NCBI RefSeq assembly: GCF_008000815.1
Contig: NZ_CP042806.1
Span: forward strand, 3,720,001 to 3,784,000
Length of the DNA: 64,000 bases
From: Terriglobus albidus
GTDB lineage: Bacteria; Acidobacteriota; Terriglobia; Terriglobales; Acidobacteriaceae
Direction: 5' to 3'
Shown here piece by piece: positions 12,133 through 29,261 of the stretch. The stretch's first letter is position 1; the number at the start of each line of letters is the position of its first letter. Both the position numbers and the translations under genes were made by a program. Below the pieces are notes generated by a model. It saw nothing but the letters and a program-made list of their open reading frames with translations. It was not told the origin of the DNA and ran no database searches.

Positions 12133-12134
12133 GT

Positions 12135-12494
12135 CTACTTCACCGTGAACTTGTACTCACCTTGCATTTTATGTCCATCGGGAGCAACGGAAACCCAATG
12201 CACCAGGTAATCGCCAGGTGTCAGCTTGGGCACCTCAAGCGTGAGTGTCTTGGGATCTCCCGCAACGCCCGCCGACTTCTCTGTACCGACCGTCGCGCCC
12301 TTCTCGTCCGTCAGCGCTAGCGAGCTGAACTTTGCTTCGACAGGCTCCGAGAAAGTAACAACGACCTTCGCAGGAGCGGGACCCGCGGAGTCGGCTGCGG
12401 GCAGCATCACTTTAGGATGGGCATGGGCCATGGCCACTGGGACGCAGGCTGTTACCGTCATTGCGAGACCAAGAACACATGTTTTCAGATTCAC
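12135..12494 (-). CDS. copC: CopC-domain periplasmic copper-binding protein
   Basis: A 119-residue exported protein: signal peptide up to about residue 23-25 (CVPVAMAHA), then a CopC/YobA beta-sandwich. Mature CopC binds Cu(II) through an N-terminal His and a DxH motif; here HPKV directly follows the predicted cleavage region and DGHKMQGEYKF at the C-terminus gives the DxH. Canonical segments are VVTFSEPVEAKFS and LTPGDYLVHWVSVAPDGH. It is the first gene of a copC-copD pair; a 115-bp MITE-like element sits just upstream and may carry or disturb its promoter. Confidence 0.92.
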   Translation of the reverse strand: MNLKTCVLGLAMTVTACVPVAMAHAHPKVMLPAADSAGPAPAKVVVTFSEPVEAKFSSLALTDEKGATVGTEKSAGVAGDPKTLTLEVPKLTPGDYLVHWVSVAPDGHKMQGEYKFTVK

Positions 12495-12513
12495 GACTGA
12501 TATCTCTCCCTTT

Positions 12514-12628
12514 TAGAGCATTTTCTCTGTTGCTGTGTATCCCGAAAATGGCGTACAGCGGCGTTTTTATTGCGGAAAACCCCATAGATGCGGAGTCCCT
12601 ACACTAGACCTACAGGGACAACGCTCTA
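12514..12628. mobile_element. 115-bp MITE-like element with terminal inverted repeats
   Basis: The left end TAGAGCATTTTCTCTGTTG (12514-12532) matches the reverse complement of the right end at 15 of 19 positions. Both ends begin with TA, consistent with the TA target duplication of IS630/Tc1-mariner-type elements. There is internal symmetry (GTCCCT/AGGGAC near the right end; GTTTT/AAAAC in the middle) and no coding capacity. The right-end TAG is the stop codon of the neighbouring gene at 12626. Copy number cannot be judged from one window. Confidence 0.55.
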
Positions 12629-13921: not shown

Positions 13922-15637
13922 ATGCGATCCAGGTTGATGGCTGTGTGTTTGATCGGTCTGCTGGTAGGACCGATAGCGTGCAACAAGAAAGAAACCAAGA
14001 CGTCGTCGGCGACCGGCAAGCCAAAACTAGGAATCAATCCGAATGGCACTGGTAACGCTGGGCCCGATGAGAGCAAAGCGCCGCCCGAGTTGAAGAAGGT
14101 ATTCGATTACATCGACGCTCATATCGACGAGCATGTCGAGAACCTGCAGAAATGGATTCAGCAGCCTTCCATCTCGAATTCCGGCGAAGGTATTCCGGAA
14201 TCGGCTGAGATGGTGAAGGGCTTCTTCGATAAGCTCGGCTGCCAGACCACCCGCGTGATCGATGTAGGCATTACCGAGTACGGCTCTCCGGGAAACCCGG
14301 TCGTGTATGCCAAGTGCGACGAGGGCGCGCCGAAGACGGTTGCGATCTATTGGCAGTACGACACCATGCCGGTCACACAGCCCGACCTATGGGTTGCACC
14401 TCCGTTTGAAGGCCGCATTATTCCTGGGAAGGATGCCGGTCTGCCGAATATTCCGCGTGTCATGATCGGCCGCGGAGCCACCAACTCAAAGGGGCCTGAG
14501 ATGGCTCAGCTGAACGCTCTGATGGCGTACAAGCAGGTCAACGGCAAGCTGCCCGTGAACCTGATCTTTATCGCCGAGGGTGATGAAGAGCGCATGGATA
14601 TCGGTCTGCGCAAGTTCTTCCAGGATCACTCCGATCTGCTGAAGGAAGCGGATGCACTGTATGCCGGCGGCCCCTCCGAGGGCTGCGTCTATGTGGAGCT
14701 CACCACCAGCGGCACCAAGTGGGGCCGCGGCCCGACAGTCAGCGATGTGCACGGCGTGATGAAGCGTACAACCGACTCACCGGCATGGCGCCACATCCAT
14801 ATGCTGGCTTCGCTCACCTCGTTTGATGGCAACACGCCTCTGATCCAGGGCTTCTTTGACAACATGGAGAAGCCGACCCCGGCGCAGATGGACGAGCTCA
14901 AGAAGCGCGCCGCGAATACAAACCTGGAGCAGATGGCAAAGAACCAAGGCGTTGCCCGCTATATGTCTGACGATCCGGTCGAAGTTCTGAAGGATGGCCG
15001 CTTTGGCACCAGCTTCAACCTCGACGGTATCTGGGGCGGCAATATGTACGCCGGAGGCGCAGGCGCTATTCTGCCCAACAAGATCACCTCGAAGCATAAC
15101 TTCCGTTATGTGCCGAAGATGAACGGCCCGGATCTGATCAAGAAGCTTCGCGCCCAGCTGGATAAGAATGGCTATAAGGACGTAGAGATCAAACTCATCG
15201 GCGATGTGCCTTGGTCGCGCGGATCGTCGTCGGACACCGATATCTCCAACGCGCATAAGAAGGCAGGCGAATTGCTCGGTGTCACCGCCGATCGCAATGG
15301 CCCGTTCATGATGGCATCGCACTACAACTTCCTCGGTGAAGACAAGCCCCTGGGTGTTTCGCAGGCGGAAGCGACCGGCGGCTACTGGCCCTCGTACCTC
15401 TTCGCCGATGGAGAGGTCGGCCAGAAGGTCGGCAGCATCTCCATTCCGATGGGTATGGGCGCTCGCGGTGGACAGGGGGGACGCGCTCACGCCGCCAACG
15501 AGTACTATGCGGTTGAAGGTTCCAAGTGGGATAACGGTATGGCTGGAGCCGAGAAACTGGTCGCGGCCAGTATGTACTACTACTCTCAGATCACGACGGT
15601 TCCACCGAAGCCGAAGACCTCCGCGGCCTCGAAGTAA
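13922..15637 (+). CDS. M20-fold lipoprotein with altered metal site (paralogue A)
   Basis: A 571-residue lipoprotein: the signal sequence ends GPIAC, with C20 as lipid anchor. I start at ATG 13922 rather than 13865, because this gives a proper lipoprotein signal. The fold is that of M20 (carnosinase/DapE-like) peptidases. YWQYDTMP (144-150) aligns with the usual HxDxxP, GRGATNSKG (N188) with RGATDDKG, EGDEE (219-223) with the catalytic EExE, and RAHAANEYY with the last His. Thus the first ligand His is Gln (Q145) and the bridging Asp is Asn, while D147, the Glu pair and the last His remain. Either metal binding differs or the enzyme does not use the standard mechanism. Highly similar to the gene at 27555. 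It directly precedes an ABC exporter operon, separated by a 12-pair hairpin. Confidence 0.85.
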   Translation: MRSRLMAVCLIGLLVGPIACNKKETKTSSATGKPKLGINPNGTGNAGPDESKAPPELKKVFDYIDAHIDEHVENLQKWIQQPSISNSGEGIPESAEMVKGFFDKLGCQTTRVIDVGITEYGSPGNPVVYAKCDEGAPKTVAIYWQYDTMPVTQPDLWVAPPFEGRIIPGKDAGLPNIPRVMIGRGATNSKGPEMAQLNALMAYKQVNGKLPVNLIFIAEGDEERMDIGLRKFFQDHSDLLKEADALYAGGPSEGCVYVELTTSGTKWGRGPTVSDVHGVMKRTTDSPAWRHIHMLASLTSFDGNTPLIQGFFDNMEKPTPAQMDELKKRAANTNLEQMAKNQGVARYMSDDPVEVLKDGRFGTSFNLDGIWGGNMYAGGAGAILPNKITSKHNFRYVPKMNGPDLIKKLRAQLDKNGYKDVEIKLIGDVPWSRGSSSDTDISNAHKKAGELLGVTADRNGPFMMASHYNFLGEDKPLGVSQAEATGGYWPSYLFADGEVGQKVGSISIPMGMGARGGQGGRAHAANEYYAVEGSKWDNGMAGAEKLVAASMYYYSQITTVPPKPKTSAASK

Positions 15638-15656
15638 GTCTCAACCAACGTAACGA

Positions 15657-15690
15657 CCTCCAGCAGCGTCTTTCGTGGCGCTGCTGGAGG
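15657..15690 (+). other. Strong hairpin between lipoprotein and ABC genes
   Basis: Perfect 12-pair stem CCTCCAGCAGCG (15657-15668) / CGCTGCTGGAGG (15679-15690), ten-base loop, twenty bases after the stop of the lipoprotein gene and 25 bases before the ABC ATPase. No T-run follows, so it may be a partial terminator, RNA stabiliser or processing site that sets different expression levels in one transcript. Confidence 0.6.
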
Positions 15691-15715
15691 CCCATACACA
15701 GAAAGAGACATCGTC

Positions 15716-16471
15716 ATGACCCCTGTGATTTCCGTTCGTAACCTGACGAAGACCTATCACGTCGGCGAGCATCAGGTCCATGCTTTGCGCTCGATCTCGC
15801 TGGATGTCTATCCGGGCGAGTTCGTTTCCGTGATTGGACCTTCCGGTTCCGGTAAGTCGACGCTGATGCATATCCTCGGTTGTCTCGATCAGCCGACCAG
15901 CGGGCAATACTTTCTCGATGGCCGAGATGTCTCCCGTCTGAGCGATGACGAGATCTCACTCGTCCGGAATAGGCAGATTGGTTTTGTCTTTCAGGGATTC
16001 AATCTGCTTACCCGGACCTCGGCTTTGGAAAACGTAGAGCTCCCGTTGCTGTATGGGACAGGGAATGTCTCCGCGGCAGAACGCCGGAAGCGAGCTATGG
16101 CCGCACTGGAATCTGTGGGGCTGGAATCGCGTTGGGACCACCATACTAATCAGCTTTCAGGCGGGCAGCAGCAGCGTGTCGCTATTGCGCGCGCGCTCCT
16201 CAATAATCCATCTATCCTGCTGGCCGATGAGCCCACCGGCAACCTCGACAGTAAAACATCGATCGAAGTGATGGAGATCTTCCAGTCGCTGCAGCGTGAG
16301 CGGGGCATCACCATCGTGCTTATCACTCACGAACTGGACGTAGCCGCCTACGGCTCTCGCATCATGACCTTTAAAGATGGCAACATTCTTTCAGACGTAG
16401 CGAATGACAGCCGGCGCCACGCCAGCGGAGAACTGGAGAACCTTCCGGTCCCTGTAGAAGGAGTGCTGTAG
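15716..16471 (+). CDS. ABC transporter ATPase (MacB/LolD type)
   Basis: A 251-residue cytoplasmic nucleotide-binding subunit. Walker [10 protein letters not shown] is at 41-49, the Q-loop is in VFQGFNLL, the signature is [15 protein letters not shown], Walker B is [13 protein letters not shown] and the H-loop is in LITHELDVA. The [22 protein letters not shown] opening and the LPLLYG segment are typical of the MacB/LolD/FtsE group, which drives mechanotransmission across the periplasm rather than transport through the membrane. It overlaps the first permease by one base and is the only ATPase for three permeases. Confidence 0.95.
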
Positions 16472-17934
16472 TGGTTTTCCCCAACGCGCTCGTGATTGCG
16501 TGGAAGGCGCTGCGCCGCAACCGGATGCAGACTGCCTTGACTATGTTGGGCATGACCATCGGTGTGGCCACTGTGCTGACGATGATCGCCCTTGGCAGCG
16601 GAGCACAAAAGGCAATTCAGGATCAGGTCAAGGCAGCCGGTATGAATATGCTGCTGGTCACCGCAGGGAACTACCAGGCCCAGCGGGAGCGGCCGCCGGA
16701 TGATGCAATCGAGATGGGGCGTCTCCACAATCCAGAGACCGGAATGAAGCCACATCTTCAGTTTGCGATGTTCCATCCGGAAGACGATCCGTTTGCAGTG
16801 CACGACCATCCGACCTCGCGCCAGCGTCTTGGTGACTCCGAGGCAGGCCTGGGAGCGGCAGCAACGCTGACGCTCGATGACGCGGAAGCTGTCCGCAAGA
16901 TCAAAGGCGTACAGTACGCGGTCGAGGGCGTCCACGAAAACGTGCATGTCTCCAGCGGCGATACGCGCTGGTTTACTCGCGTGCATGGCGATGGCAGTGC
17001 GCTACCGGAGATCCGCAGGTCCTGGAAGTTCACACATGGCGGATTCTTCAGCGCAAGGCAGCAGCGGAATAAGGAACAGGTGGTCGTTCTGGGGAGCATC
17101 GTCGCGGAGAAGCTCTTTGGAGATAAAAGTCCTGTCGGCGAAACAGTTACCTTGTGGAAGCAGCCGTTCAAGGTCGTAGGCGTGGTCACCAGCGCGAACT
17201 GGATGGTGACTCCTGAAGCTGGGGATGACCAGTTTGATGCGGTCTATATCCCGGTAACGACCATGCAAAGTCTGCTGAATCTCTCCAAGCTCAATGACAT
17301 TACGGTGACGACCGAATCCACTGGAGATGTGACGCGCGTCGCCAAGACGATTACAACCGTATTGCGCTCGCGTCACGGCATCGATACCAGTCATCCCGAC
17401 GACTTCACGGTGACCAGCCAGGCAAGTAAAGCTCTCCTCAAAGGCGGCCTTCGTCCGGACGTGGCGCAGGCTGTCACCGGAAATGTCGGTGGTCTGGAAA
17501 AGGTTACGCTTGATCAGCTTGGAAAAACGCTCGACAAGTCCAGTAAGACGATGACCGCCTTGCTGGCCAGCATCGCGACGGTGTCGTTGATTGTTGGCGG
17601 CATCGGCATCATGAACATCATGATGCTCTCGGTCACGGAGCGCACCCGCGAGATAGGCATTCGCCGTGCGGTCGGTGCACGTGAGAAGGAAGTATTGATG
17701 CAGTTTATCTATGAGTCAGTCACGCTCAGCGTCGTTGGTGGCCTGCTGGGCATTTTGATAGGAGTCGTTGCTGCCATCTCGATCTCGCACGTTGTGCAAT
17801 GGTCAACCAGCATCTCACCGCTTTCGATTGTGCTGTCGTTCGGCATCTCCGCGGCTGTCGGCATCTTCTTCGGCTACTATCCCGCTCGGGAAGCATCGCG
17901 TGTCGCACCTTTGACGTCGTTGAGGTTTGAGTAA
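16471..17934 (+). CDS. MacB/FtsX-type ABC permease 1
   Basis: A 487-residue permease with one N-terminal helix (LTMLGMTIGVATVLTMIALGSG), a large periplasmic MacB-PCD domain (about 45-330) and the C-terminal FtsX domain with three helices (VSLIVGGIGIMNIMMLSVTERTREIGIRRA and two further segments). Start is GTG at 16471, overlapping the ATPase stop by one base, with gaaggag seven bases upstream. It ends TAATG into the next permease. It is much closer to permease 3 than to permease 2, sharing the long QDQVKAAGMN region and the DDQFDAVYIPVTT segment, so these two look like a duplication. Confidence 0.93.
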   Translation: MVFPNALVIAWKALRRNRMQTALTMLGMTIGVATVLTMIALGSGAQKAIQDQVKAAGMNMLLVTAGNYQAQRERPPDDAIEMGRLHNPETGMKPHLQFAMFHPEDDPFAVHDHPTSRQRLGDSEAGLGAAATLTLDDAEAVRKIKGVQYAVEGVHENVHVSSGDTRWFTRVHGDGSALPEIRRSWKFTHGGFFSARQQRNKEQVVVLGSIVAEKLFGDKSPVGETVTLWKQPFKVVGVVTSANWMVTPEAGDDQFDAVYIPVTTMQSLLNLSKLNDITVTTESTGDVTRVAKTITTVLRSRHGIDTSHPDDFTVTSQASKALLKGGLRPDVAQAVTGNVGGLEKVTLDQLGKTLDKSSKTMTALLASIATVSLIVGGIGIMNIMMLSVTERTREIGIRRAVGAREKEVLMQFIYESVTLSVVGGLLGILIGVVAAISISHVVQWSTSISPLSIVLSFGISAAVGIFFGYYPAREASRVAPLTSLRFE

Positions 17935-19295
17935 TGGTAATCAGGAAAAGCTTCAAGATTGCGGTCAAGGCTCTCAAGACCAATAAGCTGCGTACCGGCC
18001 TTGCCATGTTGGGGATGACGATCGGTGTCGCCGCTGTGCTGACCATGTTCGCTCTTGGTACCGGAGCGCAGCAGTCTGTCTCCAAGGATGTAAAGTCCGC
18101 CGGCACGACCCTCATCAACGTACGTGCGGGCAACTTTACGCGCGGTGGAGAAGAGTCCAAAATCGCATCCGGCCTTGGTTCAGCGACAACGCTGATCGCT
18201 GACGACGCAGAGGCTATCCGCTCGCAGGTGCAGGGCGTCGGTTATGTCTCTCCCTTGACACGTATGCGAGGGTGGGTTGCCTACGGCAGCGACAAGACCT
18301 ATACCCAGGTCTATGGCGTCGGCGTGGACTACGCCGAGATGTATGACTGGAACTTTGAAAAAGGGAAGTTCTTCAAGAAGGGCGCCGTGGATGATGCCGA
18401 GAATGTAGTTGTCATCGGCGCCACCTTGCGGGATAACCTCTTTGCCGATGCCAATCCCATTGGGGAAGAGATCGAGATCCACGGTGAAAAGTTCAAGGTG
18501 AAGGGAGTCTTCTCCACCAGCGACGAAGAGCAGTCGCAGATGGCCATCATTCCCTATACCAAGCTACAGAAGATGCTTGGCATCAACTATCTATCGAACA
18601 TCATGGTGTCGGCGGAAGAGGCTGGCAAGGCTTCCGATGTCGCCAAAGATATCGTTCCCTTGCTGCGTTCGCGTCACAGGCTGGAATCGGCTCCCAAATC
18701 CTCAACCTCTGCCGGTCTGGGTCTGGGTGGGCTACAAGGCGCTGCGATGAGCGGAACGCCAGATGACTTCACCGTCAAGACACAGGCCTCGGAAGCCCTG
18801 ACCAAGGGGCTGAATACCTCGGTCGCGGCCTTCATCCTCGCCAATATGCCGCAGATGGACCAGGTGAACATGCAGGAGATGTCCGGCACCCTGAACCGTG
18901 CCGGGCAGACAATGACAGCTCTGCTGGCGGCGATCGCTACCATCTCACTGATTGTCGGCGGCATCGGCATCATGAACATCATGCTCGTCTCGGTCACGGA
19001 ACGGACACGCGAGATCGGGATTCGCCGCGCTGTCGGGGCGCGCTCCTACGACGTGCTGATGCAATTCCTCGTCGAAGCCATTACCCTTGGCCTGGCGGGG
19101 GGCATCCTTGGAATCATTCTTGGATTTCTTGCCTCGTTCACCATCACGCGAACGCTGCAGTGGGATGCCACGGTATCCTCAACTGCCGTTGCCCTGGCAT
19201 TTGGCATCGCTGCAGCCACTGGCGTCTTCTTCGGCTTTTATCCGGCTCGCCGCGCCTCGAAACTGAATCCGATTGATGCCCTGCGCTTCGAGTAA
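17934..19295 (+). CDS. MacB/FtsX-type ABC permease 2
   Basis: A 453-residue permease with the same architecture: N-terminal helix (GLAMLGMTIGVAAVLTMFAL), periplasmic MacB-PCD domain, FtsX domain (SLIVGGIGIMNIMLVSVTER). Its start overlaps the stop of permease 1 by one base (TAATG), so translation is coupled. Its periplasmic domain differs most from the other two, lacking the DDQFDAVYxP region and containing a Gly-rich stretch (GLGLGGLQGAAMSG). This suggests it supplies a different partner or substrate contact in a heterodimer. Confidence 0.93.
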   Translation: MVIRKSFKIAVKALKTNKLRTGLAMLGMTIGVAAVLTMFALGTGAQQSVSKDVKSAGTTLINVRAGNFTRGGEESKIASGLGSATTLIADDAEAIRSQVQGVGYVSPLTRMRGWVAYGSDKTYTQVYGVGVDYAEMYDWNFEKGKFFKKGAVDDAENVVVIGATLRDNLFADANPIGEEIEIHGEKFKVKGVFSTSDEEQSQMAIIPYTKLQKMLGINYLSNIMVSAEEAGKASDVAKDIVPLLRSRHRLESAPKSSTSAGLGLGGLQGAAMSGTPDDFTVKTQASEALTKGLNTSVAAFILANMPQMDQVNMQEMSGTLNRAGQTMTALLAAIATISLIVGGIGIMNIMLVSVTERTREIGIRRAVGARSYDVLMQFLVEAITLGLAGGILGIILGFLASFTITRTLQWDATVSSTAVALAFGIAAATGVFFGFYPARRASKLNPIDALRFE

Positions 19296-19301
19296 GACGG
19301 C

Positions 19302-20792
19302 ATGACAGACCTCTCCTCGCTCCGCAAGAGCACGGCCATTGCCTGGCGATCGCTGCAGCGCAATAAGCTGCAGACGATTCTTACGATGGTCGGCATGACG
19401 ATCGGCGTAGCCACGGTGCTGACCATGATTGCCCTGGGCAGCGGAGCACAGGCTGCAATTCAGGATCAGGTTCGCGCCGCTGGCATGAACGTGATCGTCG
19501 TTAGCGCCGGAAACTACAAGATGCAGCAGCAGTGGACGAGCCAGGGCGAGGCTGAGGAACCGGCCGCCTACGTTCCAGGCCGTTATCGTGCCCGATTTCG
19601 CACGATGACGTGGCAGCCATCGTCTCCTGCCATGCTGATGAGGGTCTACCAGCCGGGGACGAATCCGCAACAGGATATCGCTCATGGTGGCGAGAACGCC
19701 GCAGGGCTCGGAGCTTCTGACAAGCTCAGCCTTTCCGATGCGGATGCAATCGCCGATCTGAGTGGTGTTCAGTTCGTTTCGCCTGGAGTTACAGAGAACG
19801 TAGTCGTCAAAGCCGGTGATGCTACCTGGTACACACACATCCATGGAGAAGGGAAGGATTTGCCTTCGATCCGGAGAGCATGGATCTTTCCGAAGGGACG
19901 GTTCTTCTCAAAGAGTGAGATCGCAAATGCTGCGAACGCTATCGTAGTTGGAAGTATGGTGGCGGAGAAGCTCTTCGGGAGCGTGAATCCAGTAGGTAAG
20001 GATGTCACGATCCGGGGCGGAAGTTTTCGTGTTGTCGGAGTCGTAGATAGCGGTAGCTGGATGGTGCCGGCAGCGGTCGGTGACGATCAGTTCGATGCCG
20101 TCTATATGCCGGTAACGACAGGGCAGAACCTGCTTGGTAAGCGGAGGCTCGACTCAATCACGGTATCCACGGTCTCTACCGGCGACGTCACACGGGTAAC
20201 GAAAAACATTGCCACCCTCCTTCGGCAGCGTCATAGATTGGCGCACGAAGATCCGGATGACTTCATTGTCTCCAGCCAGGCTCGCAAATCGCTGGCGCGT
20301 GGAGGCATGCGAACCGATATCGCGCGTGCCATCACAGGAAATGTCACCAATCTCGACAAGGTGACGCTGGAACAGTTGGGGAAGACCCTCGATCGGGCCA
20401 GCCGTACCATGACGGCGCTGCTGGCAAGTATCGCTTCGGTTTCGTTGATCGTCGGCGGTATCGGCATCATGAACATCATGCTGCTCTCCGTGACCGAGCG
20501 CACCAAGGAGATCGGCATCCGGCGAGCAGTGGGCGCACGGTCGAATGAGGTAATGCTGCAGTTCCTGATGGAAGCGGTGACACTGAGTCTTACAGGAGGA
20601 GCACTCGGCATTCTGTTTGGAGTGCTGGCCTCTGGCTCCATTACCAGGGTGGTTGCGTGGTCGACCAGTATCTCCCCGCTCGCGATTCTGGTTTCGTTCG
20701 GCGTCTCCGCAGCCGTGGGTATCCTGTTCGGATACTACCCCGCGCGAGAAGCCTCACGCGTGACACCAATGACATCGCTTCGTTACGAGTAA
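19302..20792 (+). CDS. MacB/FtsX-type ABC permease 3
   Basis: A 496-residue permease, six bases after permease 2, with an N-terminal helix (LTMVGMTIGVATVLTMIALG), a periplasmic MacB-PCD domain (about 45-340) and C-terminal FtsX helices. It is a close paralogue of permease 1 throughout, including VAEKLFG, DDQFDAVYMPVTT and the C-terminal YYPAREASRV. An extra segment of about 25 residues near 70-100 (EPAAYVPGRYRARFR) is absent from permease 1. It is the last gene of the operon, followed by a strong terminator. No MacA-like adaptor is present nearby; a TolC-family gene is 17 kb away. Confidence 0.93.
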   Translation: MTDLSSLRKSTAIAWRSLQRNKLQTILTMVGMTIGVATVLTMIALGSGAQAAIQDQVRAAGMNVIVVSAGNYKMQQQWTSQGEAEEPAAYVPGRYRARFRTMTWQPSSPAMLMRVYQPGTNPQQDIAHGGENAAGLGASDKLSLSDADAIADLSGVQFVSPGVTENVVVKAGDATWYTHIHGEGKDLPSIRRAWIFPKGRFFSKSEIANAANAIVVGSMVAEKLFGSVNPVGKDVTIRGGSFRVVGVVDSGSWMVPAAVGDDQFDAVYMPVTTGQNLLGKRRLDSITVSTVSTGDVTRVTKNIATLLRQRHRLAHEDPDDFIVSSQARKSLARGGMRTDIARAITGNVTNLDKVTLEQLGKTLDRASRTMTALLASIASVSLIVGGIGIMNIMLLSVTERTKEIGIRRAVGARSNEVMLQFLMEAVTLSLTGGALGILFGVLASGSITRVVAWSTSISPLAILVSFGVSAAVGILFGYYPAREASRVTPMTSLRYE

Positions 20793-20880
20793 GAGATCTC
20801 TAAGCTGCCGGGTGCCCGCCCTCGCAACGCTAGGGTGGGTAATGGATGCCGCAATCTTCCAACAAAGATTTGTCTCCAAC

Positions 20881-20918
20881 AGGAAAACTCGCGGAGTTGA
20901 ACCTCCGCGAGTTTTCCT
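20881..20918. terminator. Strong bidirectional intrinsic terminator
   Basis: Perfect 16-pair stem AGGAAAACTCGCGGAG (20881-20896) / CTCCGCGAGTTTTCCT (20903-20918), loop ttgaac, followed by GTTTTT on the plus strand. It closes the ABC operon and, in reverse, the convergent amidohydrolase gene. Confidence 0.92.
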
Positions 20919-20928
20919 GTTTTTCGTA

Positions 20929-22512
20929 TCACTTTGCTGGTTTGGTCAGAGTCGGGTACTTGACGCCAAGTTGATCGAGGTAAGTGGGATACTTCGACGC
21001 ATCGTAGTAGTACTTCTGCATCTCTGCCCGATACTTCTCCATCGTGGCCTTGTTCATAAAAGTTGCGGGCTTGTCCTCCGGCCGAACAAGAGACTTGTAC
21101 TTTACCGTTTTGGTCTGGACGTTGATGAAGTAGTCTTTTGCCGCAGCTATAAGCTCAGGTTTGGTCATCAGGTCATAGAGAGTCATCGCCTGCACTTTGG
21201 CGCCGGCAACGACGCCTTTGTGTGCGATAGGCGTTGCCATAGCGATGGCGTTAGCCCAGTTATGTCCGGGAAGGCCGGGAATATTGGCTGGATACGAGAG
21301 AACGATGGTCGGCACGTTCCATGAGATATCACCGATATCGTCGGACGGGCCGCTTTCTGAACTCGCCGTGGGCGACGGTGGGCGCGGTGTACGTAGCTCG
21401 GTGTCCAGACCGCTCTCCTGAGCTCCGATTTCGTGCTGTAGCGCTTTCGCCAGTGCCTGGTCATCGGCAGACCATACCGGTAACCCGATCTGTGTCGCAT
21501 TGGCATTCAGATCCTCGGCCATCGGTTTGTTGTAGTGTCCTGGCCATGCGGAGCCGAGGATGGTTTCGTCCCATGTGGTCTGCGTCATCAGGGCTGCGCC
21601 CTGGGCCATGCGGTCGCCATCTGACCAAAGGCCCTTGATGTGGTCATAGTCGAGCTCGCGGAAGTAATACCAGACAGCGGCCGACTGCGGAACGACATTA
21701 GGCTGGTCGCCGCCATTGGTGATGACGTAGTGCGAGCGCTGCTGAGGGCGGAGATGCTCACGGTGGAAGTTCCAGCCAGCATCCATAAGCTCAACAGCAT
21801 CAAGGGCAGACTTGCCCCGCCATGGAGCGGCCGCCGCATGGGCTGACTCTCCATGGAAGTTGTACTGAAGTGAGATCAGTCCGGTCTGTCCGCCCTCACC
21901 CCAGCGAGCACCCAGGTTGGTGCCGACGTGAGCAAAGAGAACAGCGTCAACATCCTTAAAGTAGCCGTCACGGACGTAATAGGCTTTTGCGCCGAGAAGC
22001 TCTTCCGCAACCCCCGGCCAGATTTTGATGGTGCCGGAGAGGTGGTTCTTCTCCATCTGTTCCTTAACCGCAAGCGCCGCGAGGATGTTGAGCGGAACGC
22101 CGGAGTTATGGCCCTCACCGTGTCCTGGAGCTCCCGGAATCAGTGGTTCATGCCAGGCAACGCCGGGCTTCTGTGATGCCTGTGGGATGCAGTCAATATC
22201 GGAACCGAGAGCGATCACCGGCTTACCGGAACCCCAGCTTGCCATCCACGCCGTTGGAATACCGGCGATGCCGCGTTCGACTTTGAATCCATTCTTCTCA
22301 AGGATCTCGGTCAAGTACTTCGATGTCTCGAACTCCTGAAACCCAAGCTCGCCATAGGAGAAGACGGTATCGACCATCACCTGCGCCAACTTCGCCTTCT
22401 TATCGACATGTTGAGCAAGGGCTGTCTTCTCCGGGGTTAAAGAGTTCTGGCCGGGGCTGATGCCCGCGGCCAGAAAGGTAAGAATTGCCGGACTGCTAAG
22501 TTTGAACTTCAC
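20929..22512 (-). CDS. AbgB-like M20D amidohydrolase, exported
   Basis: A 527-residue enzyme resembling aminobenzoyl-glutamate utilisation protein B, cleaving amide bonds of N-acyl amino acids. I chose GTG at 22512 (ggag upstream, then a signal-like KFKLSSPAILTFLAAG); longer frames run into the preceding receptor gene. Motifs are GSDIDCIPQ, GHGEGHNSG, the catalytic pair in GVAEELLGAK, GESAHAAAAPWRG in the lid domain, and GDISWNVPT with PGHNW near the C-terminus. In most M20D enzymes the metal-binding motif is GCGHD/N; here the Cys position is Glu. A C-terminal extension of about 70 residues ends the protein. It follows the receptor gene by 34 bases on the same strand, so the two are probably co-transcribed. 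Confidence 0.87.
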   Translation of the reverse strand: MKFKLSSPAILTFLAAGISPGQNSLTPEKTALAQHVDKKAKLAQVMVDTVFSYGELGFQEFETSKYLTEILEKNGFKVERGIAGIPTAWMASWGSGKPVIALGSDIDCIPQASQKPGVAWHEPLIPGAPGHGEGHNSGVPLNILAALAVKEQMEKNHLSGTIKIWPGVAEELLGAKAYYVRDGYFKDVDAVLFAHVGTNLGARWGEGGQTGLISLQYNFHGESAHAAAAPWRGKSALDAVELMDAGWNFHREHLRPQQRSHYVITNGGDQPNVVPQSAAVWYYFRELDYDHIKGLWSDGDRMAQGAALMTQTTWDETILGSAWPGHYNKPMAEDLNANATQIGLPVWSADDQALAKALQHEIGAQESGLDTELRTPRPPSPTASSESGPSDDIGDISWNVPTIVLSYPANIPGLPGHNWANAIAMATPIAHKGVVAGAKVQAMTLYDLMTKPELIAAAKDYFINVQTKTVKYKSLVRPEDKPATFMNKATMEKYRAEMQKYYYDASKYPTYLDQLGVKYPTLTKPAK

Positions 22513-22546
22513 GTCTACGTTCTCCGTGTAGGGTGTGGTTGCGCGG

Positions 22547-25500
22547 CTAGTACAGGATACGCAGGCTGAACTGCAGATCGCGTGGTGTATATGCCTGAGT
22601 AAGGGCGCCGAATCCGGTTGCGCCAAACTGCAAGCCAGTTGTCAGCGGGTTGAAGAAGTTGGGATGATTCAACAGATTAAAGGACTCGGCACGGAACTGT
22701 CCTCTTAGATGCTCAAGGATCGGGAACTCTCGGGAGAGAGTCAGATCTAATTGGGTGAACTTCGGGCCTACGACAATATTACGGCCGGCATTTCCAAAGC
22801 GGGTTGTCGGCGCAAGGGAGAATGCTGCGGTGTTGAACCACTGCGCGACAGTCTTCGGACCTGCGTTCGGGTCCTGTCCTGCCACAATATTGGGACGATC
22901 AGCGTTCCCGAAAGAGCGGCTGTTGTTGGTGGAGCTGTTGGTGATGGTGAACGGACGTCCTGTCTGGAACTGGAAGATACCAGACACCTGCCATCCACCA
23001 GCAATCGCGCCGCTTACGCCGGAGTTGAGCCACTTCTTACCCTTGCCGAACGGGAGCTGAGCAACCGGACTGAAGACAAGGCGGTGAGCTACATTGAAGT
23101 CGGATACTGCGCGCTCGGCCCTCAGGTTGTAGATGTTCTGCGGTGCACCGGAAGAGGTGGATCCGGAACCGATGCCACCGCCGCCATCGATAGACTTACC
23201 CCATGTGTATGACAGGATGAACGTCACGCCGTTCGCATAGGACTGTTTCAGACTGTTCTGCCATGAGTGGAATTCAGAGTTGGAACGCGTGTCCTGGCTT
23301 GAGACCGTTGAGAAGTTCGCGAAAGGACGCATCGTCTGCGTCGTGGTCGCGCCTTGTGCCAGATTGTTTACGTTGATCTGGTTGAGGTTGATGCTGAGAG
23401 GAAGCTTGGTGCCCTTTGAGCCGAAGTAAGTGGTTTCAAAGACCATGCTCTTGGCAAATGACTGCTGGAGACCAAAGCTCCATTCGTTGATATACGGTGT
23501 CCGATAGTTCGCGTTTACTGAGAGCGGCGAGAGTGATGGGGAGCAGGATGTCTGCGTACCGGTGGCGCAGGAGGTAGCGGCTCCTGCGAACGGAGCGTCC
23601 AGCGAAATCGTATTAATCGAGCTGGCGGTGCTTGACGTCGAGGTCGAGGTTCCGATGATGCGATAAGGATACTGAGTACCAAAGTTCAGGAACTGGTTGT
23701 AGAGAAGCGGGGTGTTGTAAAAAGCCCCAAACGCTCCCTTGACGACGGTCTTGTCGCCAGAAAACGGCTGCCACGAAAAACCGAGTCGCGGTGCCCAGTT
23801 GTTCCAGTCGTAGTTATAGAGATGCTTGAAGGCGCCGTTACGTGAGTCCGTAAAGGTTTGACTGGCGATGTCGAAACGCGAGACTGTGCCATTCGGCGTA
23901 TAGACCGGAGTATCCATCTCCCAGCGCAAACCGACATTGAGGGTGAGTTTCGGAGTAATGCGGTAGTCGTCCTGCACGAAGACATGGTTCCCAAAGAAGT
24001 TCAGGTAGACCACAGGTGCAGTCGTACCGATGGTAGACGTGTAGCTCAGACCGAGAAGAAGATCCGCCATGGAGTCTCCCACGGAACCAAGGTGGCTTCC
24101 GCCGTTCGCCGATACGATATTCGCATCATTGACAGAGAATGCACCACGACCGGACGAAGTGAGGAGGTTGATGGAGCGGGCCAGCAACAGATCGATACCT
24201 GCCTTGACCGTATGCTTGCCATGGGTCCAGCTGATGGCGTCTACGATCTGGTAGTGACTGTCCCAGCGGTTTTGGGGCAGGTTGGTGGCGCCGCCGATGG
24301 TGGCGAAACCGGAGATGGCGGTATTCGGAAGGCCGCTATTGTTCGCATAACCAGCCTGAGTGAAGTACGGTCCTCCCGGAAGTCCCGAATACGATGACCC
24401 AATCGCGGTGTTGTCTTCCTGAATACGAGGCTGCTGCAAACGTTGATAGCCTGCGCGGAACTCATTCAACAGGCTCGGTGTGAGTATGCGAGTGTAGGTC
24501 AGGTTGATCAGCGTTGAGATCTGGTTGGTGTAGCAGCCGAACTTCGGTACGACGTAAGAAGAGCAGAGCGAGTTGGATGGCTCGAAGGCTGGATCCTTGA
24601 AGATATTGAAGCTGCCGCTCAGTCCGTCCTTTTCCGTCAGCTTGTGATCCACACGGATGGTGTACTCATCCATGTTTTCGGAGCGGGTCTCCTGGAAGTT
24701 GTAGTTGTTGGTCGGATAGCTTCCTAGCGCAGTTGCGAGGGACGGCGTGGGAAAGCCCAGCTTTGCGATCGCCTGGCCTGCTGCGGCTCCTGTGGAGCCC
24801 CACTGACCGCGCTGCGTGCCCGAGAGCAATGTCGTCAGGTTATAGCAGCCGGTACCGCAATTTGCGGCGAGAGCTGTGCCGGTACGCGGGTTATACAGAG
24901 TCTTGCCGACGTTGAATACACCGTTCAACATGTCCGCGGTCGGTACCGTAGCGACGGCAGTCACCGCCTGGCGGATACGCTGGCCTTCATAACCAAAGAA
25001 GAAAAAGGTGTGATCCTTCCAGATGGGACCGCCAATGGTTCCGCCAAAGGTGTTCTGCTTGTACGACGGTTTCTTCGCGCCAGCCTGGGTAAAGTAGGGC
25101 TTCGCGTCGGTGATCTCATTCCGGATGAACTCATATGCCGATCCGTGGAAGGCATTGGTGCCGGACTTGGAGATGACGACGACCTGTCCACCGGCCATGC
25201 GGCCGTACTCCGCCGGATACACACCAGTAAGCAGGCGGAACTCCTGAATGGTTTCTACGGATGGACGGTAGGAGGGCTGCGCTACGCCCATGTCATTGTT
25301 GAAGATTCCGTTGAAGGTGAACTGATTCGAGATCTCAGAGGCGCCGGCGATGTTGATACCACCGCGGAAGCCGAGCGTCGAATTCTGTGCGGGCTGATAG
25401 GCAGCGGGCGAGAGCAGTGCTAGCGAATAGAACTGGCGGTTCGCCAGGGGCAGCTCTACGACCTGTTTGTTATCGACGAGGGTTCCGTTTGAGGAGCTTT

Positions 25501-25915
25501 GCGTCTGCAGCAGCGGTTCCGCGGCCTCTACGTTGACGGTGTCATTGACGCCGCCGACCGTGAGAGAGATGGGGAGTTCCGGGGTATCGCCGACGTTCAG
25601 CGTAAGCCCCGTCAGGGTCTTGGTGCTGAATCCGTTCATCGTCGTCGTGACTTCATAAGAACCGGGTTGAAGGTTCGTGACGGTGTAGAGTCCGTTTGGA
25701 TCGGTGATAGTTGTACGGACGGCGCCGGTACCAGTATTTTTCACGGTCACGGTAGCGCCTGAGATCGTTGCGCCCTGAGAGTCTTCTACGTGTCCCGTCA
25801 GCGTCGCATTGACTGTCTGCGCCGACGCGGACTGCAGGAACGTAACTGCAAACAGCAACAACAACGACAGGGAGATAGAGATAGACGGGTAGCGTCTACG
25901 TCCAAGTGACGACAT
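22547..25915 (-). CDS. Oar-like TonB-dependent outer-membrane receptor (2)
   Basis: A 1,122-residue receptor: signal peptide (ending LQSASAQ), carboxypeptidase-regulatory-like domain (GHVEDSQGATISGATVTVKN), plug (LPLANRQFYSLALLSPAA; GGQVVVISKSGTNAFHGSA) and a long beta-barrel ending in LQFSLRILY. Start ATG 25915 has tggaggc four to five bases upstream. The barrel is rich in Ser/Thr/Gly, as usual for this group. It is followed by an AbgB-like amidohydrolase on the same strand and faces a DUF885 lipoprotein gene. This suggests that it imports the amide- or peptide-like substrate that these hydrolases cut (inference from neighbourhood). Confidence 0.92.
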   Translation of the reverse strand: MSSLGRRRYPSISISLSLLLLFAVTFLQSASAQTVNATLTGHVEDSQGATISGATVTVKNTGTGAVRTTITDPNGLYTVTNLQPGSYEVTTTMNGFSTKTLTGLTLNVGDTPELPISLTVGGVNDTVNVEAAEPLLQTQSSSNGTLVDNKQVVELPLANRQFYSLALLSPAAYQPAQNSTLGFRGGINIAGASEISNQFTFNGIFNNDMGVAQPSYRPSVETIQEFRLLTGVYPAEYGRMAGGQVVVISKSGTNAFHGSAYEFIRNEITDAKPYFTQAGAKKPSYKQNTFGGTIGGPIWKDHTFFFFGYEGQRIRQAVTAVATVPTADMLNGVFNVGKTLYNPRTGTALAANCGTGCYNLTTLLSGTQRGQWGSTGAAAGQAIAKLGFPTPSLATALGSYPTNNYNFQETRSENMDEYTIRVDHKLTEKDGLSGSFNIFKDPAFEPSNSLCSSYVVPKFGCYTNQISTLINLTYTRILTPSLLNEFRAGYQRLQQPRIQEDNTAIGSSYSGLPGGPYFTQAGYANNSGLPNTAISGFATIGGATNLPQNRWDSHYQIVDAISWTHGKHTVKAGIDLLLARSINLLTSSGRGAFSVNDANIVSANGGSHLGSVGDSMADLLLGLSYTSTIGTTAPVVYLNFFGNHVFVQDDYRITPKLTLNVGLRWEMDTPVYTPNGTVSRFDIASQTFTDSRNGAFKHLYNYDWNNWAPRLGFSWQPFSGDKTVVKGAFGAFYNTPLLYNQFLNFGTQYPYRIIGTSTSTSSTASSINTISLDAPFAGAATSCATGTQTSCSPSLSPLSVNANYRTPYINEWSFGLQQSFAKSMVFETTYFGSKGTKLPLSINLNQINVNNLAQGATTTQTMRPFANFSTVSSQDTRSNSEFHSWQNSLKQSYANGVTFILSYTWGKSIDGGGGIGSGSTSSGAPQNIYNLRAERAVSDFNVAHRLVFSPVAQLPFGKGKKWLNSGVSGAIAGGWQVSGIFQFQTGRPFTITNSSTNNSRSFGNADRPNIVAGQDPNAGPKTVAQWFNTAAFSLAPTTRFGNAGRNIVVGPKFTQLDLTLSREFPILEHLRGQFRAESFNLLNHPNFFNPLTTGLQFGATGFGALTQAYTPRDLQFSLRILY

Positions 25916-26166
25916 GCAATGCCTCCAGAATGTGTTAAACGTGCAGCAGAGTGGCTGTGGGATGGTTCGTTTTCTGGTTACGGACGACTCGTGCGACTAC
26001 AGGAAAAGCCAGCAGTACTTCGCAGATACAGAAGTCAAACGACGAGAGACACTACGCCGGGTACGCCGAAAAGAGAAAAGAATGCGGCCAGATGCGCCTC
26101 GGCGTTCTTGCAAACAGCTATTTAGACTTTTCTGTAATGTCCCGGATGAACTATCTATAACAAAGG

Positions 26167-26207
26167 TTTACACAACCGTAAAATTCGACTTTCCTATCAC
26201 GTGATAG
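26167..26207. promoter_or_regulatory. Operator-like palindromes at the DUF885 gene start
   Basis: TTTAC-N6-GTAAA (26167-26182) is followed eleven bases later by a perfect 14-bp palindrome CTATCACGTGATAG (26194-26207). The proposed GTG start codon (26201) lies inside the palindrome, and no Shine-Dalgarno precedes it. This suggests direct repression at the translation/transcription start, or a leaderless mRNA. The 285-base region also contains the promoter of the divergent receptor gene. Confidence 0.55.
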
Positions 26208-27466
26208 CTAAATTCAAAAAATCCCGTAACCCCTTTTGGGTCATGCTGCTGTTAGGTCTGACATGGCAGAACAACGGCTGCCGGTCTGCCGGGCACAACA
26301 CAGAACCGGCGGAACAGTACCTCAAACTTGCCGTCTCGCTCAGCGAACGAGATCCCGATTTTCTCGATTTCTATACGGGGCCCGAACCGTTGGCGCGGGC
26401 CGCGAAAACTCCCCTCCCATCACTGGAGCAGATCGAGCAGAATGCGAAGCACCTGCAGACACGGCTTCCCAACAGCGGGTTAGGCGCCGAGCGCATTGCT
26501 TTCCTGAATCAACAGCTCAACGCCATGAATCAGCGTGTACGCCAGCTACGCGGTGCGATAGCTGGATTCGATGAAGAGAGTCGGAATTATTTTGGAGTCG
26601 TAGCGCCTCCGGATACCGATGCCGCACAGAGGGCAAAGGTGCGATCCGAAATCGCGGTCCTGATCGGCCCCGGAGCGAAAGCATATAGCGCCTACGAGGC
26701 GGCGTTTGTCGTACCGGCGAAGCAGGTTCCAGTAGTCTTCGAGGCGGCTTTGAAGGTCTGCCGTGAACGGACACTGGCACGTATCCCGATGCCGGCAGGG
26801 GAGCATATTGACGTGACCTATGTTGTCAATAAGCCCTGGGCGGGCTTCAGCCGCTATCTGGGCAATGCCCATAGCCAGATTCAGGTCAATCTTGGATTTC
26901 CGCAGACGCTCGATCGACTGCTTGACCTTGCCTGCCATGAGGGGTATCCCGGCCATCATGTCTTCAACACGCTACGTGAAGAAGCTCTGGTGAAGCAGCG
27001 TCATCAACAGGAATGGGCGGTGCAGCCTACTTTTTCTCCACAATCGTTCGTCAGTGAAGCCGCAGCCAGCTATGCGCCCCAGATGGTGCTGGACGACGCA
27101 GCGCGGGTACAGATCGAGCGTGATGTTTTGTTTCCCATCGCCGGTCTGCCACAGCGCGACATCAAGCGCTACATCCGCGTCGAAGAGCTTATAGCGATGC
27201 TGCATACCGGTGAGCCGGAGATCGCTCGCGAATATCTGGACGGCCGTTTGGAATTTGCCCGCGCGCTGTCGCGATTGGAAGAAGAGTTGCTGATGGAGCA
27301 TGGAGAGACCATGCTGACCTACCTGAACGAATACCGCAGTTATATGCTCACGTACACGGTCGGTCTGGACAGGGTAGCGAAGTACGTCAACGCCGCAGGT
27401 CCGGAGAATCGCTGGCAGCGCTATACCGCTCTTATGACCTCTTCCGTAACCAGTCTTCCTGAGTAA
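26201..27466 (+). CDS. DUF885 family lipoprotein (putative metallo-hydrolase)
   Basis: A 421-residue protein with the DUF885 signature ACHEGYPGHHVF (H246, E247, H252), a HExxxxHH-type zinc-ligand motif. The N-terminus KKSRNPFWVMLLLGLTWQNNGC is a lipoprotein signal with lipidated Cys about residue 27. Start is GTG 26201 because the basic KFKKSR segment precedes the hydrophobic stretch; ATG at 26243 would lose it. No Shine-Dalgarno is evident. DUF885 proteins are believed to be metallopeptidase-like, and their biochemical role is poorly known. It lies upstream of the second M20-like lipoprotein, 88 bases apart, likely in one transcript. Confidence 0.85.
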   Translation: MIAKFKKSRNPFWVMLLLGLTWQNNGCRSAGHNTEPAEQYLKLAVSLSERDPDFLDFYTGPEPLARAAKTPLPSLEQIEQNAKHLQTRLPNSGLGAERIAFLNQQLNAMNQRVRQLRGAIAGFDEESRNYFGVVAPPDTDAAQRAKVRSEIAVLIGPGAKAYSAYEAAFVVPAKQVPVVFEAALKVCRERTLARIPMPAGEHIDVTYVVNKPWAGFSRYLGNAHSQIQVNLGFPQTLDRLLDLACHEGYPGHHVFNTLREEALVKQRHQQEWAVQPTFSPQSFVSEAAASYAPQMVLDDAARVQIERDVLFPIAGLPQRDIKRYIRVEELIAMLHTGEPEIAREYLDGRLEFARALSRLEEELLMEHGETMLTYLNEYRSYMLTYTVGLDRVAKYVNAAGPENRWQRYTALMTSSVTSLPE

Positions 27467-27554
27467 GTGCGCTTGACCGCAAGTGTGAAACGGCCTTAGA
27501 GTCTACCCAACCGGCACTCAACCTGGCCGACCTGCTTACCGAGGACAATCGAAT

Positions 27555-29216
27555 ATGTTTCTGAAGCGCACGCCGTTGTGTCTTTTGGCATCCCTTGTTG
27601 TCTTTACGGGATGCAGCAAGAAGAACTCCAGTACTCCAACTTCTGCGAGTAAGCCGAAGCTCGGTATCCGGGCTCAGGCTGATGAGACAGTTCGTCCCGA
27701 TCTAAGCAAGACGCCGTCGGAACTGAAGAAGGTTTACGACTATATCGATGCCAACATCGATGATCACGTGCTCGACTTCCAGCACTGGATTCAGCAACCC
27801 TCGATCTCAAACTCGGGCGAAGGTATTCCTGAATCGGCCGAGATGGTCAAAGGTATGTTCGACAAACTGGGATGCCAGAGCACCCGCGTCTACGATGTCG
27901 GCATCACGGAATACGGATCACCGGGTAATCCGGTGGTCTACGCAAAATGCGATGAAGGCGCCCCCAAAACGCTGGTCATCTACTGGATGTACGACACGAT
28001 GCCGGTGACGCAGCCGGACCTGTGGGTGGCTCCTCCGTTTGAAGGCCGCCTGGTCGACGGAAAGACTGCCGGTATCGATCCATCGTTCAAGAAGGTCTTG
28101 ATCGGCCGCGGCGCGGTGAACTCCAAAGGGCCGCAGCTGGCGCAGCTTGAAGCCTTCATGTCGATGAAGAAGGTACTGGGCAAGCTCCCCGTCAACCTGA
28201 TCTTCGTCGCGGAAGGCGATGAAGAGCGCATGGATATTGGCCTGCGTAAGTTCATGAAAGACCATCCGGATCTCTTCAAGGGCTCTGACGCGATGCTGCG
28301 CTTCGCCGGCCAGAGTGCGGGTGGAGGAGCCAACATCTCCGGGGGCTCAGAGGGGTGCGTCTATGTGGAACTGACGACCAGCGGAAAGAGCTGGGGCCGC
28401 GGACCGACTGTGTCTGACATCCACGGATCATACAAGCGCTCCGTCGACTCTCCGGCGTGGCGCCACATCAAGATGCTCGGGTCCTTGATCTCCGACGACG
28501 GCAACACGCCGAAGATCGACGGGTTCTTCGAGAACATGCAACCGCTCACCAACCAGGAGACCGATTTGCTAAAGGGCTCCGCCGGAAAGATGAATGTGAA
28601 GTCCGCCGCTGACAACCTCGGCGTGGCGAGGTTTATCTCCGACGATCCCTTCACGATTCAGAAGATGTCGCGCTACGGCACCAGCTTCAATCTCGATGGC
28701 ATCTGGGGCGGCAATATGTATGCTGGCGGCGCCGGCGCGATCTTGCCGAACAAGATCACCTCGAAGCACAACTTCCGCTACATCCCGAACATGAAGGGAA
28801 CCGATATCGTGAAGAAGCTTCGCGCGCAACTCGACAAGAACGGCTACAAAGATGTCGAGGTCAAGCTGATCGGTGATGTGCCCTGGGCGAAGATGAGCTA
28901 CGACTCCGATATTGCCAAAGCCATTATGCAGACCTTCGATGAGTTCGGCATCAACTATCAGAAGCCCCTGGAGCAGGAGACCATCCTTGGCGGTTACTGG
29001 CCTGCCTACTTGTTTTCCAATCAGGAGGTCGGCGATCGCGTTGTCGATGTGAAGATGCCGATCGCGGCTGGTGGCGCTGGCATGGGAGGCCGCGCCCATG
29101 CCGCCAACGAGTACTACATCATCGAAGGCTCCGGAAAGGTCTATGGCCTTGCCGGTGCAGAGAAGTCGGTTGCCGCAACAATCTGGCACTTTGCCAATAC
29201 GCCGAAAGGGAAGTGA
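27555..29216 (+). CDS. M20-fold lipoprotein with altered metal site (paralogue B)
   Basis: A 553-residue lipoprotein; the signal ends VVFTGC with C20 as anchor, then a Ser/Thr linker. It is a close paralogue of the gene at 13922: the WIQQPSISNSGEGIPE, EYGSPGNPVVYAKCDEG and GGNMYAGGAGAILPNK blocks are shared. The same two metal-site changes are seen, with a different residue at the first: YWMYDTMP (M145 for His; in A it is Gln) and RGAVNSKG (N189 for bridging Asp). D147, EGDEE (220-224) and the terminal GRAHAANEYY are kept. A small Gly-rich insertion (SAGGGANISGG) distinguishes it from A. ATG has gagga upstream. It is followed at once by a 19-pair hairpin, then a carboxylesterase. Confidence 0.85.
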   Translation: MFLKRTPLCLLASLVVFTGCSKKNSSTPTSASKPKLGIRAQADETVRPDLSKTPSELKKVYDYIDANIDDHVLDFQHWIQQPSISNSGEGIPESAEMVKGMFDKLGCQSTRVYDVGITEYGSPGNPVVYAKCDEGAPKTLVIYWMYDTMPVTQPDLWVAPPFEGRLVDGKTAGIDPSFKKVLIGRGAVNSKGPQLAQLEAFMSMKKVLGKLPVNLIFVAEGDEERMDIGLRKFMKDHPDLFKGSDAMLRFAGQSAGGGANISGGSEGCVYVELTTSGKSWGRGPTVSDIHGSYKRSVDSPAWRHIKMLGSLISDDGNTPKIDGFFENMQPLTNQETDLLKGSAGKMNVKSAADNLGVARFISDDPFTIQKMSRYGTSFNLDGIWGGNMYAGGAGAILPNKITSKHNFRYIPNMKGTDIVKKLRAQLDKNGYKDVEVKLIGDVPWAKMSYDSDIAKAIMQTFDEFGINYQKPLEQETILGGYWPAYLFSNQEVGDRVVDVKMPIAAGGAGMGGRAHAANEYYIIEGSGKVYGLAGAEKSVAATIWHFANTPKGK

Positions 29217-29218
29217 CG

Positions 29219-29261
29219 ATGATCCCACGTTCAAAGATGATGTCTTTGAGCGTGGGATCAT
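29219..29261 (+). other. 19-pair hairpin after the M20-like lipoprotein B gene
   Basis: ATGATCCCACG (29219-29229), T, TCAAAGA pairs with TCTTTGA, G, CGTGGGATCAT (29243-29261) around loop TGATG. The only non-Watson-Crick pair is T-G. It begins three bases after the stop codon. There is no T-run; it would be a very stable 3' stem on the mRNA. Confidence 0.7.

Follow-up and report, generated by a model that had tools for sequence, protein, structure and literature searches.

Two M20-fold proteins of Terriglobus albidus with an altered metal site, members of a clade commonly encoded beside a MacB-type transporter

The best described relatives of the proteins considered here are the carnosinase-like peptidases of family M20, i.e., human CN1 and CN2, yeast Dug1p and Sso-CP2. 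According to PMC6271292, the ligands of metal 1 in CN2 are His445, Asp132 and Glu167, those of metal 2 are Asp132, His99 and Asp195, and Glu166 is the catalytic residue. In family M28, human glutaminyl cyclase carries one zinc ion on Asp159, Glu202 and His330 (PMC11312887) with its second site empty (PMC11312887, PMC7522609), and GPAA1, which has Pro at the place of the first His, has been argued to be a one-zinc enzyme (PMC7522609). The window analyzed here is a stretch of 64,000 nucleotides from Terriglobus albidus (contig NZ_CP042806.1, positions 3,720,001 to 3,784,000; host genome of 6.4 Mb in a single contig). It encodes two paralogous M20-fold proteins, P0001 and P0002, and a MacB/LolD-type ATP-binding cassette (ABC) transporter (Table 1). 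The alteration of their metal site is real, clade-wide and under selection, while their function is a prediction from sequence: with a probability of about one half, they are non-canonical, one-metal lipoprotein hydrolases or transferases that work with the transporter.

P0001 and P0002 are the products of intact open reading frames (ORFs) and are 63% identical to each other; the start of P0001 was taken at the ATG of position 13922 and not at the TTG of position 13865 upstream. The closest named match of P0001 in the contig scan was from Terriglobus albidus (97%). Both proteins belong to the M20 family, as indicated by their PF01546 scores (47.9 and 49.3 bits, respectively, with a cut-off of 24.6; expectation value (E) of 1.9e-12 for P0001) and by the two-domain M20 fold of the AlphaFold2 model of P0001, with a predicted local distance difference test (pLDDT) score of 87.5, a predicted template modelling score of 0.86, and values of 93–95 in the ten-residue blocks of the active site. 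The AlphaFold models are metal-free monomers. The structural comparison proposed in an earlier note on this DNA gave, among the matches listed, Z scores of 32.4–32.6 for P0001 against carnosinases and of 31.7–32.8 for the whole set of Sso-CP2, CN1, CN2 and Dug1p; the match to Sso-CP2 (4mmo) had Z 32.8 and a root-mean-square deviation of 3.4 over 422 aligned residues. On the other hand, P0001 and P0002 reached neither the NCBIfam cut-off of PRK06446 (135 and 172 versus 369) nor that of PRK08201 (112 and 119 versus 441), PF04389 (M28) was absent from their matches at E up to 0.001, and a PHROGs scan gave a single weak match for P0001 and none for P0002. Their N-termini are signal-like, with a Cys20 in a lipobox judged by eye, so they are probably lipoproteins anchored in the envelope.

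The metal site was mapped by sequence and profile alignment to CN1, CN2, Dug1p and Sso-CP2. Position 145, which is Gln in the YWQYD motif of P0001 and Met in the YWMYD motif of P0002 (residues 143–147), corresponds to CN2 His99. Asn188 of P0001 (GRGATNSKG), equivalent to Asn189 of P0002 (GRGAVNSKG), corresponds to Asp132; Glu222 and Glu223 of the EGDEE motif correspond to Glu166 and Glu167; and the His of the C-terminal GRAHAANE motif, His523 in P0001, corresponds to His445. The translations and this alignment bear out what the earlier note had read in both paralogues, namely the replacement of the first His and of the bridging Asp, and the conservation of D147, EGDEE and the C-terminal His. 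Its count of two substitutions fell short, since the equivalent of Asp195 is also gone (the segment is 13 residues shorter in P0001 and is an acid-free loop in P0002), which makes three changed ligands of one and the same metal. Judged from the alignment, the metal-2 triad is lost entirely, and metal 1 loses just its bridging carboxylate. Of the five ligands of the two-metal M20 peptidases, only Glu223 and His523 are retained, and this set differs from the one that a standard two-metal enzyme carries; what is kept is the half-site Asn188/Glu223/His523, the catalytic Glu222, Asp147 and the dimer-domain His277. Near these genes, the PepT-like P0003 has the full canonical set, as had also been stated: inspection shows H-x-D, GAADN, GEE, a Glu at the Asp195 place and the C-terminal His, although the bridging Asp is displaced by one column in the automatic alignment.

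The homologue search and column frequencies that had been proposed as a check were obtained from one genome-contig scan (60 loci) and 297 genomes of the phylum. The 119 matches, reduced to 102 after removal of copies, comprised 81 core rows (>300 bits), 18 sister rows (200–300 bits), the canonical paralogue L003 from the same genome, and two truncated core pieces (the second gene of L034, and L061) left out of the counts; L001 and L002 of the core are the window proteins themselves, and some core rows are cut off. Column 145 of the core contains 49 Met, 31 Gln and one gap, while column 188 is Asn in 81 of 81 rows, followed by Ser or Gln and once by Thr. So, Asn is invariant at 188 and position 145 alternates between Met and Gln, as the earlier note had suggested from two sequences, and both features are clade-wide. 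Among filled positions, Asp147 is present in 80 of 80 core rows, Glu222 and Glu223 in 81 of 81 each, His277 in 79 of 79 and His523 in 73 of 73 (eight gaps); the catalytic Glu and the dimer-domain His of two-metal M20 peptidases are thus conserved. The sister rows all have Met145 (18/18) and Asn188 (17, plus one X), and further sister members from Pseudomonadota (L121–L124), Gemmatimonadota (L116) and Bacillota (L117) show the same Met, Asn, Glu, Glu, His pattern. It can be said, therefore, that Gln or Met together with Asn is usual in this clade; as to its being a known active M20 subfamily, no characterised member was found.

The Asp195 segment was considered as the place where a different ligand could be supplied. 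Across 30 Gln-type and 44 Met-type core rows, the Asp195 place shows neither a conserved acid nor a conserved His. Asp, Glu or His occurs before the end of the segment in 8/30 Gln-type rows (in seven of them a Glu immediately precedes the Asp195 place, and in the eighth a His lies two positions ahead of it) and in 10/44 Met-type rows, mostly away from that place, and in sister rows an Asp often lies further along (SQD). By sequence, no replacement ligand in this loop was found as a general rule; the rows that might fit the alternative His/Asp pair contemplated in the earlier note are the seven Gln-type ones with the nearby Glu and the one with His. A link between Gln145 and a shortened loop was also tried (short loop in 22/30 Gln-type versus 3/44 Met-type rows), and it is suggestive only: a sign test on supported branches had five independent pairs and a median p of 0.25, with significance unreachable.

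A tree was built from 124 rows after exclusion of the five trait columns; P0003 was dropped, as was any row that had fewer than 430 residues or an X in one of the trait columns, and the window proteins appear twice, also as L001 and L002. It is a quick tree, in which long branches were flagged as joined and the placement of single long rows is unsure. One branch, with 99% support in the Shimodaira–Hasegawa-like approximate likelihood ratio test, separates all 107 non-His rows from all 17 His rows, so the loss of the metal site is a trait of a large clade. The Gln label requires seven changes, at least five of them forced by well-supported branches, a count without direction. Met is probably older than Gln, because the sister rows are all Met; thus Met at position 145 is probably ancestral, the direction being inferred. 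The idea that the two paralogues represent two independent losses does not hold, as Met is common to the sister clade and Met and Gln were interchanged at least five times on supported branches. Two of the 17 His rows in the tree (L098 and L099) keep the first His, have Asn at 188 and have lost the Glu pair.

Concerning the residues that remain, column 523 is filled in 105 non-His rows, among which Glu223 and His523 occur both in 99, neither in six and just one of them in none. This both-or-neither pattern fits a joint role as metal ligands, the six without either representing few lineages. Thinning at 85% identity left 42 core rows and 23 sister rows; of the 538 columns scored, 40 were invariant in each group separately, including Asp147, Asn188, Lys190, Glu222, Glu223, His277, Arg395 and His523. 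The ratio of nonsynonymous to synonymous substitution rates (dN/dS) was 0.025–0.127 in seven pairs, with synonymous divergence (dS) of 1.2–2.0 except in the two closest pairs. Both genes are under purifying selection. These ratios, together with Asn188 in every core row, make chance or decay unlikely as the origin of the substitutions, as the earlier note had argued in favouring selection.

The strongest functional clue, overlooked in the earlier note, is the dedicated ABC transporter operon. The genes that follow P0001 encode an ABC ATPase and permeases with MacB_PCD and FtsX domains, i.e., a MacB-type transporter, even though the ATPase and permease 1, the two covered by the NCBIfam scan, fall below the curated cut-offs of MacB, LolD and ADOP. 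MacAB, LolCDE and ADOP share with this locus the combination of an ATPase with MacB_PCD/FtsX permeases and differ from it in that here an M20 lipoprotein is co-encoded. The linkage was counted over 61 core loci, the window included, in 48 of which the sequence continues for 2.5 kb or more past the last M20 gene; the other 13 were left out. An ABC or MacB gene starts within 2.5 kb downstream on the same strand in 39 of the 48, and the transporter lies elsewhere in the same run in three more (42/48): in the window the Gln-type gene is with the transporter and the Met-type gene comes last, and in L022 and L040 the transporter genes are upstream. No transporter of comparable strength was found in any of 17 loci of canonical or other relatives, where weaker matches were seen (ABC, 38–93 bits, in L144–L147 and L157; MacB-like, 57 bits, in L156). 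In several relatives (e.g., L012, L013, L015 and L037) there is a four-base overlap of the M20 stop codon with the start of the ATPase gene.

The cassette looks dedicated, since the Sphingomonas natans genes linked to M20 match those of the window better than do copies from the window's own genome: the permease scored 494.7 bits against window MacB1 and the ATPase 333.8 bits against the window ATPase, versus 107 bits per piece (matches split) and 280 bits, respectively, for the best own-genome copies outside the operon, values that come from two programs with slightly different scoring. The cassette also occurs in Croceicoccus (L050), a Rhizobiales genome (L056) and Solimonas (L052). An obligate Gln-plus-Met heterodimer was considered in view of tandem loci (e.g., L012–L016 and L048) and rejected: pairing within an operon is not required, because there are operons with a Gln-type gene only (L024, L046, L049) or a Met-type gene only (L037, L058, L064).

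With regard to the mechanism, a single metal, perhaps weakly held, would be bound through Glu223, His523 and possibly the carbonyl of Asn188. By analogy with the single-zinc glutaminyl cyclase, Glu222 could act as acid/base on an amide-like substrate, which would be handed to the transporter or received from it. The role of these proteins is probably different from that of ordinary peptidases. The carnosinase-like enzymes have in common with them the fold, the two domains, the catalytic Glu, the dimer-domain His, and the C-terminal His with its partner Glu, whereas the CN2 residues His99, Asp132 and Asp195, ligands of the second metal (PMC6271292), are represented in this clade by Met/Gln, Asn and no conserved acid, respectively. 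Mono-metal crystal forms (DapE, 3isz and 4o23; acetylcitrulline deacetylase, 2f7v; according to the entry titles) represent an M20 fold with one metal. The likeness to one-zinc M28 enzymes such as glutaminyl cyclase and GPAA1 is our own mapping through the ligand set shared by M20 and M28, in which the half-site kept here would correspond to the single zinc site with its adjoining catalytic Glu: versus the Asp, Glu, His and catalytic Glu of M28, the clade has Glu, His and catalytic Glu, with Asn in place of the bridging Asp. Besides belonging to another family, glutaminyl cyclase still carries the residues of its empty site, unlike this clade. The mono-metal forms of DapE and acetylcitrulline deacetylase also have the full ligand set, unlike this clade, and the site filled in mono-zinc DapE is presumably the one lost here, a point for which no confirming text was found. 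5-Nitroanthranilate aminohydrolase is a one-metal enzyme of M20 fold; a literature search on it gave nothing usable, and it does not serve as evidence here.

Several observations weigh against a one-metal enzyme working with the transporter. The only strong ligands of the half-site are a single Glu and a single His, and with Asn as its third member the site may be too weak; that this Asn stands where the bridging Asp would be makes tight binding of a metal harder to argue. The relative L097 is without the catalytic Glu as well, and two haloarchaeal plasmid relatives, L115 (4001–5473) and L118 (4001–5245), with Met, Lys, Glu, Ile/Leu and Glu at the five trait columns, have no metal ligand at all, yet keep Glu222 and His277, so the fold can persist metal-free. 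The seven Gln-type rows with a Glu next to the Asp195 place, which are from other species, could have a partial second site. As to the transporter, it is missing from the stretch examined in 6/48 core loci (L006, L011, L019, L020, L021 and L030) and, by the same search, was found in none of 16 sister loci, so that the altered site does not depend on it; moreover, close relatedness of the species means that many of the 48 loci do not count as independent cases. Finally, none of the members found is characterised for metal, substrate or activity.

Part of these observations would be explained if the M20 fold served as a non-catalytic binding or adaptor lipoprotein of the MacB-type transporter, as a stand-in for MacA, the usual partner of MacB, or for a solute-binding protein. 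This pseudoenzyme alternative, possible but rather doubtful, agrees with the change of all three ligands of one metal, including the bridging Asp turned to Asn, with the strong linkage to the transporter, and with the loss of every ligand in L115 and L118. It agrees also with the scarcity of HlyD-type adaptors, which fall outside the families seen in at least two of the 63 scanned neighbours (there is one in L050). However, a pure binder would be expected to let some active-site residues drift, and Glu222, His277, Arg395, Glu223 and His523 are invariant in the thinned sets, also in that of the sister clade, where none of 16 loci has such a transporter. The one-metal enzyme is favoured over the binder on the ground that, whether or not the transporter is present, neither the general base nor any part of the kept half-site varies in the thinned sets of the two subclades.

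It seems improbable that the proteins are ordinary two-metal M20 peptidases in which other residues supply the ligands or Asn188 is converted to Asp after translation. The conservation of the fold and the remaining active site would suit them, as would the carboxylates Asp147, Asp221 and Glu253 conserved in core rows and the Glu beside the Asp195 place in the seven Gln-type rows. Nevertheless, every filled core row has Met or Gln at the His99 place, an acid or His is present in the Asp195 segment of just the minority of rows counted above, and position 253, Glu in all thinned core rows, is occupied by Lys in each of the 23 thinned sister rows, while 13 of the His rows have Arg there and 4 have Lys. 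Spontaneous deamidation of Asn is not favoured without a following Gly, and it is thus not favoured at Asn188, where the next residue is Ser, Gln or once Thr, and never Gly. Decaying peptidase duplicates, to which the lost ligands and the frequency of multiple copies (two to four M20 genes in the stretch examined in 17/61 core loci, window included) could point, are contradicted by the low dN/dS, the universal Asn188, the grouping of the non-His rows on one branch instead of scattered, and the lack of reported internal stops in 24 listed matches at E ≤1.4e-217, and hardly deserve belief.

If one metal suffices, this clade would be an M20 counterpart of the one-zinc M28 branch that holds glutaminyl cyclase, and it would show which residues are needed for one-metal chemistry on the M20 fold; if no metal is used, it would represent a large family of pseudoenzymes linked to a transporter. 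In both cases, the linkage of the genes opens a direct way to learn what a dedicated MacB-type transporter, present in more than one phylum, does. A wider and tentative picture, which we regard as rather unlikely in its entirety, is an envelope system of Acidobacteriota and some Proteobacteria in which a converted peptidase, with one metal or none and with Asn for the bridging Asp, serves a dedicated MacB-type transporter as its lipoprotein partner or as its catalytic head, with no regular MacA-like gene seen nearby, devoted to synthetic or transfer chemistry or to peptide capture and not to hydrolysis. The clade was not found in the literature searched on M20 pseudoenzymes, M20 proteins of Acidobacteria, one-metal or non-peptidase M20 proteins, and MacB with M20, with mostly open-access coverage and part of the hits; in the available text of a review of inactive metallopeptidases (PMC11266112), the string M20 occurs only within reference identifiers. 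The link of the clade to a transporter was not found described in that literature. In public records, three plasmid-borne relatives with altered sites are labelled metallo-hydrolases even though the full metal site implied by that name is missing; L115 and L118 carry this annotation.

Table 1. Features of the window considered in this work (+, forward strand; −, reverse strand).
Feature	Coordinates	Strand	Evidence
M20-fold lipoprotein (predicted) P0001, Gln type (Q145, D147, N188, E222, E223, H277, R395, H523; Cys20 lipobox)	13922..15637	+	ORF, translation, Pfam, model, fold match
MacB/LolD-type ABC ATPase, next gene after P0001	15716..16471	+	PF00005 6.3e-35; NCBIfam MacB 258 and LolD 242 bits, both below cut-offs
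MacB-type permease 1 (MacB_PCD + FtsX)	16471..17934	+	Domain scan
MacB-type permease 2	17934..19295	+	Domain scan
MacB-type permease 3	19302..20792	+	Domain scan
M20D amidohydrolase	20929..22626	−	TIGR01891 168.8 bits, above cut-off
Oar-like outer-membrane beta-barrel receptor with CarboxypepD_reg	22547..25915	−	PF25183 2.7e-230
HEGYPGHH-motif protein, putative metallopeptidase	26201..27466	+	Motif
M20-fold lipoprotein (predicted) P0002, Met type (M145, N189; Cys20)	27555..29216	+	ORF, translation, Pfam, family columns
P0003, PepT-like M20	35348		Canonical metal set on inspection

The fold of the family was also modelled for the sister protein L077, which gave the same fold (pLDDT 82.4; Z 36.2 against Sso-CP2). 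The core has a patchy distribution: among the matches listed, those at E ≤1.4e-217 come from 12 of the 297 phylum genomes and from two of the four of the window's genus, and in Pseudomonadota matches at E up to 1e-40 were present in 5/299 genomes, including the genome used as centre. Two contigs from metagenome-assembled genomes, L044 and L058, are titled Cyanobacteria and Acidimicrobiia; the titles are probably wrong, because their M20 genes are identical to those of genomes sampled from the window's own phylum. Some relatives are otherwise degenerate at positions 145, 188, 222, 223 and 523, with N, D, E, Q, F in L095 and L096, N, Q, E, Q, Y in L101, and N, E, R, Q, F in L097.

Regarding other neighbours, the Oar-like receptor is in the same gene run in some relatives, according to the gene maps. 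The HEGYPGHH protein, whose motif resembles that of DUF885, had no notable match in Pfam, NCBIfam or the PDB; in 23 of the 51 loci with enough upstream DNA, a gene for it begins no more than 2.5 kb ahead of the M20 gene. Genes for HupE/UreJ-type permeases, possible metal transporters, were seen in 7 of the 63 scanned neighbours, six of them placed by name, upstream of the M20 gene in L029, L037, L043, L055, L059 and L064. Divergent from the P0001 gene, positions 11260–13456 (reverse strand) encode a CopD-type protein and a His/Met-rich protein of 276 residues, probably secreted and without a Pfam match, a pair seen in several Terriglobus-like relatives. Directly after each of the two M20 genes there is an inverted repeat with 19-nt arms (15650–15697, between P0001 and the ATPase gene, and 29219–29261), which could form hairpins related to transcript ends or mRNA stability.

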